This document shows positions 14,462-23,929 of a DNA stretch of 64,000 nt, one piece after another; within the stretch, counting starts at the first letter, position 1, and each line of letters begins with the position of its first letter. Below the pieces are notes generated by a model. It did no database searches. It worked only from the letters and a program-made list of their open reading frames with translations, and was not told the origin of the DNA. This DNA comes from Thiogranum longum (GTDB taxonomy: Bacteria > Pseudomonadota > Gammaproteobacteria > DSM-19610): contig NZ_SMFX01000001.1 of assembly GCF_004339085.1 (NCBI RefSeq), positions 1,496,242-1,560,241 on the forward strand, read 5' to 3'. The translations under genes were made by a program, and so were the position numbers.

Positions 14462-15463
14462 TCAGCGGCTGAGCACAATCCTGTAGCGTGCCTGTCCGCT
14501 CCTGAGCCGCGCGATTGCTTCGTTCACCTGTTCTAAACGGAATTGCTCTGTTACCGGTTTGATCTGGTGGCGTGCTGTAAAATCCAGCATGCGCCGAATA
14601 GTAGCCGGACTACCAACCGGCGATCCCGACACCGAACGCTGTCCCAAAATCATGGGAAACACCTGCAGATCCAGGGGGTCCAATGTCGCGCCAAGGAAAT
14701 GGAGGCGGCCCCTGGGCTTAAGGGCAGACATATAGGCATTCCAGTCCAGTTTGATGTTTACGGTAGAAAGGATCAGATCGAAGTGGCCAGTCACAGATTC
14801 AAGTGCCGAGGAGTCTCTGGAGCTGAGCGCATGGTGCGCACCAAGTTTGAGTGCCTCCTCTTGTTTCGCCAGGCTCGAAGTGAAAGCCGTAACCTCGCAA
14901 CCCCATGCGTTAAGAAACTGAAGCGCCATGTGGCCGAGCCCGCCAATACCGATCACACCGACCTTGGCGGTCGAAGAAACGTCAAACTGAGTCAGTGGAT
15001 TAAAAACCGTTATTCCACCACAGAACAACGGTCCGGCAGTCGCTGAATCGAGCGACTTCGGTAGCGGAAACACGCTGACCGCGCTGGCGCGTACTTTTTC
15101 GGCAAACCCACCGTGGCGTCCGACAATTGTAGCCTCGGAATTGGCGCAGAGATTATGATCGCCCGACATACAGGAGTCGCAGGACATGCAGTAGCCGGAA
15201 TGCCAGCCCAATCCCACGCGTTGACCAACCTCAAGGTGTGTCGCAGCACCGCCGACTGCAGCGATTGTTCCGATGACTTCGTGCCCGGGTACGAGGGGGT
15301 ACTCTGTCATCCCCCATTCGTTATCCAACATGCTGAGATCACTGTGACAGATGCCGCAGTGTTCGACATTGATTTCGACCTGATGGGCACCGAGTGGACC
15401 GGGGTCATATTCGTAGGGTCTTAGCTCTCCACCAGGTTTGAATGCCGCATAAGCTTTTATCAT
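14462..15463 (-). CDS. Zinc-dependent NAD(P) alcohol dehydrogenase (YahK/CAD-like)
   Basis: This 333-residue medium-chain dehydrogenase has catalytic zinc ligands in HCGICHSD (C36) and GHE (H61), structural zinc cysteines C92, C95, C98 and C106 in [17 protein letters not shown], and the cofactor motif GIGGLGHMA. It resembles the cinnamyl-alcohol-dehydrogenase-like aldehyde reductases (YahK, AdhC2), usually NADPH-linked and broad in aldehyde substrate. The length is slightly short of typical (~345). It stands alone on the minus strand with a 200-base upstream spacer. Confidence 0.9.
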
Positions 15464-15552
15464 TACGCTTCTCCTGTGAGCGAATTATCCATGCTCTCTG
15501 CATGCACCGCGCAATCAAGAGTTTAGCCTATGGAAAGGGTACGGAAAGGGGG

Positions 15553-15579
15553 CGGAGGGATATAATATTATCCCCTCCG
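15553..15579. repeat. Short palindrome upstream of the alcohol dehydrogenase and DsrC-like genes
   Basis: CGGAGGGA and TCCCCTCCG flank a TATAATATTA core, making a near-perfect inverted repeat in the space between divergent genes. The core contains TATAAT. It could be an operator overlapping a promoter for the DsrC-like gene. No downstream T-run supports a terminator. Confidence 0.4.
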
Positions 15580-15667
15580 TTCCATTTGTCGCCATTTGTC
15601 GATCAATCGACTCTGATCCCATTGACCTATACACTTACACCACTGTTCCTCAGCCAGGTAAAAAACA

Positions 15668-16078
15668 ATGACATACAATATTGAAGAAATCAGTCGTGGT
15701 TTCCAGAAAGCCATGCAGGAAGCGGGCGATGTAAGTGTGGATACCGATACCGACAGCCAGCAGCGCACACGCCGTCAACGCGTACTGGATATGTGGAACG
15801 AAGACATCGGACGTGCGCTGGCTGCGAACGAGGACCTGAAGCTCGATGACGCCCATCTGGCCGTTATTTACAGCCTGCGCGACCATTTTCTTGAACACGG
15901 GTTCGCGAAAGCCGGAAGAGTGCTGGGAGACATGCTCGACGCACGGTTCGAAGATGCCGGTGGTCGCAAGTACCTGCGACGCCTGTTTCCGAACGGGCCG
16001 GTCGCCCAGGGCATGAGGATAGCGGGTTTGCCGGTACCGAACCTGACTGAGAACAAGGGACAGGGAACGGCGCGTTAG
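15668..16078 (+). CDS. TusE/DsrC family protein lacking the catalytic cysteines
   Basis: This 136-residue protein has the DsrC C-terminal fold signature GGRKYLRRLFPNGPVAQGMRI and AGLPVP (about 98-124), preceded by a helical region with MWNEDIGRALAANED and YSLRDHFLEHGF. True DsrC carries a cysteine in the AQGCRIAGLP-type segment and another penultimate to the C-terminus; TusE keeps only the latter. Here the first is Met116, the tail is PNLTENKGQGTAR and the whole protein has no cysteine. It cannot carry a persulfide. It fits the cysteine-less DsrC homologues suggested to be regulatory (RspA-type). No dsrAB or tus genes are nearby. Confidence 0.82.
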   Translation: MTYNIEEISRGFQKAMQEAGDVSVDTDTDSQQRTRRQRVLDMWNEDIGRALAANEDLKLDDAHLAVIYSLRDHFLEHGFAKAGRVLGDMLDARFEDAGGRKYLRRLFPNGPVAQGMRIAGLPVPNLTENKGQGTAR

Positions 16079-16161
16079 GCTGGGGTGTCTGGTTATCACC
16101 GTGATATATTTACCGATATGGGGGCTATACTTAGACGAGGGGTAATGTGAGGTATCGGAGT

Positions 16162-16671
16162 ATGAAACCAGACAAGCACCTGATTGCAGCCATACTATCT
16201 GCCTTGTTAACGCTTGTTGCCGGCGTGGCCTGTGGGTCGGAGATCTACAAGTGGACAGGGGATGACGGCGTTACACACTACGCAGAAGCGCCACCTGAAA
16301 CCAGTTTTTCCAGCCTTGAAATTCTGGATGTTTCTGTCCCCGAGCCTGCTCCACCTGCCACTACGATTTATCAGCCAGTACTCGACGTCGCAAACAGCAT
16401 TGAAGCCAGCCGACTGGAACGTGAACGTGCGCGGCTCGAACGAAAAAAAATACTTCTGCAAGAACGAGAGTTACAGCAATCGCAGCTGGCTGCGCAACCA
16501 AGCTACTATAGAAACAATGCGGTGGGTCCTGCCTACTACCCGCCTCGCTACCGATATCCCCCCCGGCCTTACCCACCAGGGTACTGGCGCTATCCGATGC
16601 CGACACCACATCAAGGCGGTGACCGACCGGGCAGAGATGGCGGTTCGGCACGCGCCTTCTTCAACCGCTAG
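16162..16671 (+). CDS. DUF4124 domain-containing exported protein
   Basis: This 169-residue protein has a signal peptide (1-25, cleavage near VACGSE) and a DUF4124 domain at the mature N-terminus (EIYKWTGDDGVTHYAEAPP), a small β-motif common in gammaproteobacterial periplasmic proteins. An Arg/Glu-rich coiled segment (about 80-105) and a Pro/Tyr-rich low-complexity tail (YYPPRYRYPPRPYPPGYWRY) follow. ATG MKPDKH is chosen because it gives a clean signal peptide; a GTG five codons upstream is in frame. Function unknown. Confidence 0.8.
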   Translation: MKPDKHLIAAILSALLTLVAGVACGSEIYKWTGDDGVTHYAEAPPETSFSSLEILDVSVPEPAPPATTIYQPVLDVANSIEASRLERERARLERKKILLQERELQQSQLAAQPSYYRNNAVGPAYYPPRYRYPPRPYPPGYWRYPMPTPHQGGDRPGRDGGSARAFFNR

Positions 16672-18969: not shown

Positions 18970-19266
18970 TTAAGCCGCATGCGGATGAACCCGCTTCTCA
19001 ATTTCCTTCCCGACAGTCTGTGTCGCGACTCGCAGATCATACTCAGTCTGTAAACCCATCCAAAGTTCCGGTGAGACGCTGAAATAACGCCCAAGACGTA
19101 GCGCTGTATCTGCAGTAATACCACGCTTGCCATTCACAATTTCACTGATGCGACCGGGAGGCACATAGATATCCCGTGCCAGCCGATTGATGCTAATCTC
19201 CATGGGTTTTAGAAAGTCCTCCCGCAGAATTTCGCCGGGGTGGATGGGTGTTAGTTTTTTAGCCAT
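18970..19266 (-). CDS. higA: HigA-type antitoxin, copy 1 (orphaned)
   Basis: This 98-residue HTH protein begins MAKKLTPIHPGEILREDFLK, the HigA/VapI addiction-module antidote signature, with the helix-turn-helix INRLARDIYVPPGRISEIVNGKRGI. It is nearly identical to copy 2 at 23345-23641, with differences at E12 versus V12 and R80 versus M80. Its cognate toxin gene directly upstream is broken. It may persist as an anti-addiction antitoxin able to neutralise the copy 2 toxin, or simply be decaying. Confidence 0.9.
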   Translation of the reverse strand: MAKKLTPIHPGEILREDFLKPMEISINRLARDIYVPPGRISEIVNGKRGITADTALRLGRYFSVSPELWMGLQTEYDLRVATQTVGKEIEKRVHPHAA

Positions 19267-23344: not shown

Positions 23345-23641
23345 CTAAGCCGCATGCGGATGAACCCGCTTCTCAATTTCTTTCCCGACCGTCTGTGTTG
23401 CCATCCGCAAATCATACTCAGTCTGTAAGCCCATCCAGAGCTCCGGGGACACGCTGAAATAACGCCCAAGGCGTAGCGCTGTATCCGCAGTAATACCACG
23501 CTTACCATTCACAATTTCACTGATCCGGCCGGGCGGCACATAGATATCCCGTGCCAGCCGATTGATGCTGATCTCCATGGGTTTCAGAAAGTCCTCCCGG
23601 AGAATTACGCCGGGGTGGATGGGTGTTAGTTTTTTAGCCAT
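23345..23641 (-). CDS. higA: HigA-type antitoxin, copy 2
   Basis: This 98-residue HTH antitoxin has the same helix-turn-helix as copy 1 (LARDIYVPPGRISEIVNGK) and the IHPGVILREDFL start. It follows higB by nine bases and precedes DUF6940 by ten. In HigBA systems the toxin is encoded first, as here. HigA binds operator sequence in its own promoter; a palindrome at 23938-23960 is a candidate site. Confidence 0.92.
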   Translation of the reverse strand: MAKKLTPIHPGVILREDFLKPMEISINRLARDIYVPPGRISEIVNGKRGITADTALRLGRYFSVSPELWMGLQTEYDLRMATQTVGKEIEKRVHPHAA

Positions 23642-23650
23642 AACAAAATC

Positions 23651-23929
23651 TCAGTGATAATCCACAATTTCAACATCCGTCACTTCGCCGAAATTCCAGC
23701 AGAAGCAAATACGCCATTGATCGTTAATCCGGATGCTGTGTTGTCCCTTACGGTTGCCTTTTAAGGCTTCCAGACGATTGCCAGGAGGTACCTTCAGATC
23801 CTGCAGGCGTCTGGCCTGATCCAGGTACAGCAACTTGCGGCGGGCAACTCGCTCAATGTTTTTGAAACGCGGAACAACGTTATCGTTAAACAAGGATTCC
23901 GTGTCCTTGCACACGAACGCCCGAATCAT
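23651..23929 (-). CDS. higB: HigB-type RelE/ParE-superfamily toxin
   Basis: This 92-residue toxin reads MIRAFVCKDTESLFND, RKLLYLDQARRLQDLKVPPGNRLEALKG, then GQHSIRINDQWRICFCWN, the HigB/plasmid-maintenance killer signature with the C-terminal WRICF strand and HYxx-like VEIVDYH end. HigB toxins cleave mRNA at the ribosome. This copy is full length, unlike the one at 19276. It is first in the operon. Confidence 0.92.
   Translation of the reverse strand: MIRAFVCKDTESLFNDNVVPRFKNIERVARRKLLYLDQARRLQDLKVPPGNRLEALKGNRKGQHSIRINDQWRICFCWNFGEVTDVEIVDYH

Follow-up and report, generated by a model that had tools for sequence, protein, structure and literature searches.

Members of the DsrC family are told apart by two cysteines: a redox-active DsrC, the substrate of DsrAB, carries both CysA and CysB, and TusE keeps the terminal CysA. 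Many DsrC paralogues are carried by sulfur oxidisers, and Venceslau et al. are said to have proposed, in 2014, a role in regulation for RspA-type, cysteine-poor DsrC-like proteins. Allochromatium vinosum has four paralogues in addition to DsrC, with roles described in excerpts of one report as still to be established (PMC3368242), and the excerpts of that and a second report leave them unexplained (PMC3368242, PMC11267869). A further paper describes the dsrC_1 group of SUP05 phages as DsrC-like proteins whose second, terminal cysteine has been lost and whose function is presumed to be modified (PMC4164917). Here we analyse a gene of this family from Thiogranum longum, located on a 64,000-nucleotide stretch of the genome (contig NZ_SMFX01000001.1, positions 1,496,242 to 1,560,241; hereafter the window). 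Its product, the window protein, is a DsrC paralogue in which both redox cysteines are missing, and it belongs to a conserved, cysteine-poor clade (the P clade) that has a C-terminal Phe-Gly (FG) tail and is found mainly in sulfur oxidisers of the dissimilatory sulfite reductase (dsr) type.

The window protein matches the DsrC family model PF04358 (67.6 bits, cut-off 24.9) and TIGR03342 (64.6 bits, cut-off 53.5), and scores 55.7 bits with the TusE model, below the equivalog cut-off of 191. Its 136 residues include no cysteine. In the alignment to A. vinosum DsrC (1yx3), GPVAQGMRIAGLPVP lies over GPAKQACRFAGLPKP, so that the CysB position is Met116; when 96 family rows are aligned, Thr127 takes the place of CysA and nine further residues follow it. 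The protein thus lacks both the pair of cysteines of a redox-active DsrC and the single terminal cysteine of TusE. The original prediction had recognised a DsrC-family protein without cysteines, with methionine at one redox position and no terminal cysteine in the tail, and had concluded that it could not carry a persulfide. These readings hold: with both redox positions replaced, persulfide carriage by the known cysteine route is excluded, as judged from the sequence. A sequencing error or a lack of conservation had been named as grounds for abandoning the prediction, and neither is found. The gene is conserved in relatives, and an error is excluded in practice because independently assembled relatives without exception carry Met, Leu or Ser at CysB. 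The same relatives, together with low dN/dS (the ratio of non-synonymous to synonymous substitution rates), led us to reject a pseudogene, though the tail of the window copy is degenerate. Automatic annotation with TIGR03342 would label the window protein a sulfur relay protein, which is misleading for the P clade.

P-type matches were found in eight of the genomes covered by a search of 114 relatives (G000, the window's own, with G001, G002, G003, G005, G008, G014 and G018), and seven of these eight fall within the 17 genomes of the window's genus. The seven non-window proteins are 41–68% identical to the window protein. An earlier contig scan with the single window protein confirmed none of 42 stretches; a scan based on an alignment narrowed 88 pattern stretches to 24 loci, of which 19 are P-type. 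Three extra P-type matches (L125–L127), with Met or Leu at CysB and the FG tail present, came from a class-wide search with a profile built from P rows; the tail of the second copy in genome G264 was inspected in part only. The hosts are Thiogranum, Thiohalocapsa, Halochromatium, Rhabdochromatium (Chromatiaceae being among them) and other Gammaproteobacteria. The P alignment comprises 19 proteins (L069, an identical protein, was omitted), and the CysB position is Met in 11, Leu in seven and Ser in one. For the contig-scan set this residue is ascertained, because the peptide pattern itself required Met, Leu or Ser; the searches of the 114 relatives and of the class left it free, and the P-type matches inspected there also have one of these three residues. 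The tail, a nine-residue C-terminal extension past CysA, has the consensus TEDxGFGTAR, with Phe in 18 of the 19 rows and Gly133 in all. The window copy is the lone exception at the Phe (F132Q), and also has Asn for Asp129 (D129N). Mean identity among the 19 rows is 0.81 for residues 95–124 and again for the tail (127–136), compared with 0.62 for the core (36–94) and 0.48 for residues 17–35.

A tree of DsrC, TusE and cysteine-less homologues, which the original prediction had called for, supports the cysteine-poor clade. It was built with the CysB column and everything past the arm base removed, from 79 of the 96 rows (17 near copies were dropped), and its bootstrap had not fully settled. The 19 P rows are monophyletic (support 95/89) and are nested in a larger group of DsrC-like proteins with an FG tail (38 rows, 100/97), which also includes rows with Cys (11) or Ser (7) and L041, with both cysteines. 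This arrangement would fit an FG-tailed ancestor whose cysteines were later lost, an order of events that we infer. The window copy falls within the monophyletic group and has a P-type residue at CysB, its tail deviating at the two positions given above. The P clade is under purifying selection, with dN/dS of about 0.05–0.20 for six of the seven pairs compared, two of which have a high dS; in the seventh, the window copy against L062, dS is saturated, so no dN/dS could be obtained for the window copy. Neither a viral nor a plasmid or other mobile origin could be sustained: a viral contig scan with the P alignment gave 29 pattern stretches and no confirmed relative, and the 15 matching plasmid records are all below 60% identity, the annotated ones being tusE. 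Two side observations concern the wider family. L041 (from G020), in which both cysteines are followed by an FG tail (ADCEDMSFGTSQ), is a possible intermediate, and there are two-domain DsrC-like fusions (L078–L081, L105, L109–L111) in which the first domain lacks CysA and has Ser or Thr in place of CysB, and the second has CysA only.

The co-occurrence with sulfur oxidation genes that had been suggested as a check is also borne out. Across 369 class genomes the P profile has matches at E 1e-12 in 176, and matches above 175 bits in six; the next best is 133, and P was separated from the other FG-tailed matches at this gap (178 to 133). The dsrA gene is over cut-off in 112 of the 369, and in five of the six genomes with P (p 0.011). 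Of 63 genomes with matches covering the FG tail, 55 also have dsrA (p 2e-25), a count taken from among the matches listed that may be incomplete. These Fisher tests treat genomes as independent and ignore relatedness.

The AlphaFold2 model of the window protein is all helical, with a mean pLDDT (predicted local distance difference test) of 75 and values below 50 for the last seven residues. A second model, led by the full-tailed L062, likewise gives a low-confidence tail, again with pLDDT below 50 for the last seven residues. The sole Foldseek match below 1e-3 is A. vinosum DsrC, and VIA-align gave Z-scores of 8.6–10.6 to seven DsrC-family chains over up to 99 residues, all best matches being DsrC-family. 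On the predicted model, the window protein has the DsrC fold. DsrC has an N-terminal hairpin, and no strand is present at this place in the model. Residues 60–120 also align to the helix-turn-helix (HTH) part of the TetR-family protein EthR, a partial match over 54 residues (Z ∼4.5, root-mean-square deviation 1.9–2.2), and the order of the helices in this match suggests that helix 97–108 may be the recognition helix. The mean net charge of this helix is +3.4 in the 19 P rows, compared with +2.4 in the FG-tailed proteins with Ser, +1.9 in those with Cys and +1.0 in six rows of two-cysteine DsrC, and whole-protein charge is similar between the four groups. Arg100 is found in 18 and Arg104 in 16 of the 19 P rows.

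How might a DsrC-fold protein act once its sulfur chemistry has gone? We tentatively propose that the window protein works by binding without redox chemistry, and that it is most likely a regulator that binds DNA and acts on stress or iron-sulfur genes; a regulatory role is thus favoured, as the original prediction had mentioned for similar proteins. By this mechanism sulfur carriage would have been lost and the protein would work by binding: the retained core would offer the HTH geometry of the TetR type, the helix after the turn (GGRKYLRRLFP) would have turned basic in the P clade while the rest stayed acidic, and binding to DNA would tune how strongly stress, iron-storage or sulfur genes are expressed. 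What was once the CysA arm would now be a conserved tail without redox function, which might serve in docking or sensing. DNA binding is favoured because the core is HTH-like, one of its helices has newly become basic, and the genes stand alone or at the edges of operons beside stress genes. In the closely related loci L059, L060 and L061 a CRP-type regulator lies directly upstream and Hsp20 downstream (Pfam on L059 only), and an Fe/Mn superoxide dismutase lies directly upstream of P in L067 (by Pfam) and L073 (by clustering). Metallo-beta-lactamase-fold proteins are found at L070 and L082, with a rhodanese at the latter. Conserved neighbour clusters span at most five of 20 loci, the DsrC gene and its antisense or shadow frames being excluded, and these counts are lower bounds because flank lengths differ greatly between loci. 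If the proposal is right, the P clade would separate binding and regulation from sulfur carriage, and the old suggestion of gene regulation by DsrC-like proteins would become directly testable.

A number of observations weigh against a DNA-binding regulator. A Z-score of 4.5 to EthR is middling for a helical protein, HTH geometry is a feature of DsrC-family proteins in general, the sulfur carriers among them, and no TetR or other bacterial HTH Pfam model matches any of the 19 P members. All 19 are acidic proteins (pI 4.4–6.2), and the basic helix is a single clade-wide change and not repeated evidence. No neighbour gene is common to all P loci, nor any upstream operator to the P genes of 18 relatives. 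Within the genus, 13 of the 17 genomes have dsrA over cut-off and only seven have P, so P is accessory to the dsr pathway. TetR_N, too, had no match at the level of sequence in the Pfam scan. Separately, 12 of the 19 members show a weak Pfam match to EcoEI_R_C (best E 0.00029), which probably reflects helical resemblance by chance.

A concrete second hypothesis is supplied by the neighbourhood of other P genes. At five of 23 distinct P genes, in four genomes (L064, L067, L068, L154 and L155), P is on the same strand as genes for encapsulated ferritin (EncFtn) and encapsulin. P is followed by EncFtn and encapsulin at L064, where 114 bp separate the P stop from the EncFtn start, and at L068, where the gap is 26 bp; at L067 one open reading frame (ORF) lies between P and EncFtn-encapsulin, and the encapsulin is a remnant, P being intact. 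In G264 the EncFtn and encapsulin genes precede P in both copies of the region (L154, L155), this duplicated segment being 99.9% identical over the 1590 bases compared. EncFtn is near seven of the 23 P genes altogether, five within 2.5 kb and two (G005, G014) some 10–11 kb off. In these last two genomes it is a DsrC-family gene of another class, here class E, that adjoins EncFtn-encapsulin, and class E genes are near encapsulin in G008 and G327. This class has a GLPDPGEEAKAYL tail and Trp at CysB, and was seen at L121 (G005), L122 (G014), L068 (G008), L179 (G327) and L016, the last being the copy of the window's genome (C1:687668-687940), which stands alone. In G005 and G014, away from encapsulin, a CysB-only DsrC-like gene (L160 and L163; GYGQQACKIAGMRKP) also adjoins an EncFtn-like gene that lies on the opposite strand.

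Encapsulin (PF04454) is present in four of eight P genomes compared with six of 106 others among the 114 relatives (p 0.002), and in seven of 14 further P genomes, giving 11 of 22 in total. In the class-wide sample the figures are two of six and 17 of 363 (p 0.033), and encapsulin itself shows no association with dsrA there (7 of 19, p 0.61). A DsrC-family gene lies within ∼1.5 kb in seven of 28 encapsulin genomes (G002, G005, G008, G014, G264, G327 and G388), compared with 0.35–0.59 such proximities expected, some of the contigs being short. Relatedness among genomes is ignored in these tests as well. It is conceivable, if rather unlikely, that encapsulated-ferritin nanocompartments of sulfur oxidisers have DsrC-fold proteins without cysteines as their partners or local regulators, with at least two paralogue classes (P and class E) in the same place; if true, this would link a sulfur-relay family directly to iron storage. 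The tail end GFGTAR is only loosely like the EncFtn ends TIGTLKE and TIGALKEKQ, and it is unlikely to be a targeting peptide for encapsulin: P genomes share this tail whether or not they have encapsulin, which speaks against a plain cargo signal, and similar FG tails belong to a group far commoner than encapsulin.

Could the window protein itself be an accessory of encapsulated ferritin, a DsrC-fold helper in cargo, assembly or protection from iron or sulfide that has been orphaned secondarily in this genome? The same-strand loci, the enrichment of encapsulin in P genomes and the excess of close DsrC-encapsulin pairs all speak for such a role, but half of the P genomes (11 of 22) have no encapsulin, the association is weak in the even class sample, the tail is indifferent to encapsulin, and at L067 an intact P gene sits beside an encapsulin remnant. 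The window's genome has neither encapsulin nor EncFtn, and the explanation cannot apply to this organism as it stands; we regard it as unlikely. A doubtful but somewhat stronger candidate is a pseudo-carrier or decoy, whose core and cysteine-less arm would dock on DsrAB, DsrMK, DsrEFH or TusBCD, compete there and modulate sulfur flux. Its attraction lies in the arm base, LFPxGPVxQG...AGLPVP, which is more strongly conserved than any other part of the P proteins (mean identity 0.81, the core having 0.62), in the co-occurrence of P with dsrA, and in the alignment of the model to DsrC from DsrAB crystals (2v4j_C, 3or1_C). However, excerpts of one study report that the Ser111 and Ser100/111 variants of DsrC bind DsrEFH far more weakly than wild type (PMC3397948), so a cysteine-less arm should compete poorly for DsrEFH; most genomes carrying dsrA have no P, and the window gene is far from the dsr genes.

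The preferred reading, a DNA-binding regulator, has also to be set against a simpler fate for this one copy, that it is vestigial and heading for loss. The window gene is alone, the near-invariant Phe132 and Asp129 are replaced, and its end branch is 0.26 long compared with 0.04–0.17 in the four nearest relatives, but its frame is intact and its core and arm base are conserved, making outright decay improbable. From the sequence, the window copy may be partly diverged in function, given its isolated position and the degenerate motif in its tail.

The setting of the gene is as the original prediction described it, alone and beside a zinc alcohol dehydrogenase (ADH) and an upstream palindrome, both of which are present (Table 1). 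Neither the ADH as a partner nor the palindrome as a binding site is supported. The palindrome was rejected as an operator, since ATAATATTAT is absent within 260 bp upstream of the start in all 18 relatives, and the ADH is missing from the conserved neighbour clusters of the P loci. No sigma-70-like promoter or terminator match was found in 15400-16250. The downstream neighbours are a DUF4124 protein and a Mut7-C protein.

Table 1. Positions in the window of the DsrC-family gene, its parts and adjacent elements
Feature	Position	Strand	Basis or remark
P-type cysteine-less DsrC-family gene	15668..16078	+	ATG to TAG; 136 aa plus stop
Helical N-terminal extension, residues 1-39, replacing the DsrC N-terminal hairpin	15668..15784	+	PF04358 match begins at residue 40 (profile position 18); predicted model
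DsrC core, residues 40-125	15785..16042	+	PF04358 match, structure comparison
Putative recognition helix of HTH-like unit, residues 97-108	15956..15991	+	Clade mean net charge +3.4
Met116 codon, CysB position	16013..16015	+	19-row P alignment
C-terminal tail, residues 125-136, Thr127 at CysA, degenerate FG motif	16040..16075	+	Family alignments
Perfect 10-bp palindrome ATAATATTAT, between divergent ADH and DsrC-like gene	15562..15571	.	Sole copy in window
Zinc ADH, adjacent divergent gene	14462-15463	-	Neighbour annotation

The genome is a single contig of 2.92 Mb with a dsr operon (dsrA at C1:1778054, adjoining frames named by eye) and ten DsrC-family genes: one has both cysteines, two CysA only, three CysB only and four, the window gene among them, neither, so paralogues without these cysteines are common in this genome and the window gene is not unique in this respect. 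Some 2.5 kb separate a second paralogue without any cysteine (L005/L009, C1:1775278-1775583, minus strand) from dsrA, and the two are on opposite strands. Elsewhere in the window are two near-identical genes for 98-residue HTH_3 antitoxin-like proteins (18970-19266 and 23345-23641, both on the minus strand), with two differences counted by eye and similar flanking ORFs; a 92-residue HigB-type toxin-like ORF (23651-23929) adjoins the second, and none is listed beside the first.

In the literature searched we found no link between DsrC and encapsulin, and no DsrC-like proteins described by the terms 'lacking' and 'cysteine'; RspA with DsrC gave one unrelated paper. Term searches for 'DsrC' and 'TusE' found neither in the portions covered of an encapsulin survey (PMC8346489) and an EncFtn review (PMC11202242). 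The conserved FG tail, the P clade and the encapsulin link were thus not found in print, and the clade may be named in the main review of the family, which lay outside the search.

How, then, does the window protein compare with the systems already described? With the two-cysteine DsrC of A. vinosum (1yx3) it shares the fold, the arm base LFPxGP...AGLPxP and hosts that are dsr-type sulfur oxidisers; it differs in having neither CysA nor CysB, helices in place of the N-terminal hairpin, a nine-residue FG tail and a gene away from the dsr operon. TusE is alike in family and fold, but keeps the terminal cysteine that the window protein lacks. The dsrC_1 group of the SUP05 phages, as far as the excerpted account goes (PMC4164917), resembles the P clade in being DsrC-like with the terminal cysteine lost, whereas the P clade has in addition lost CysB and carries the FG tail.
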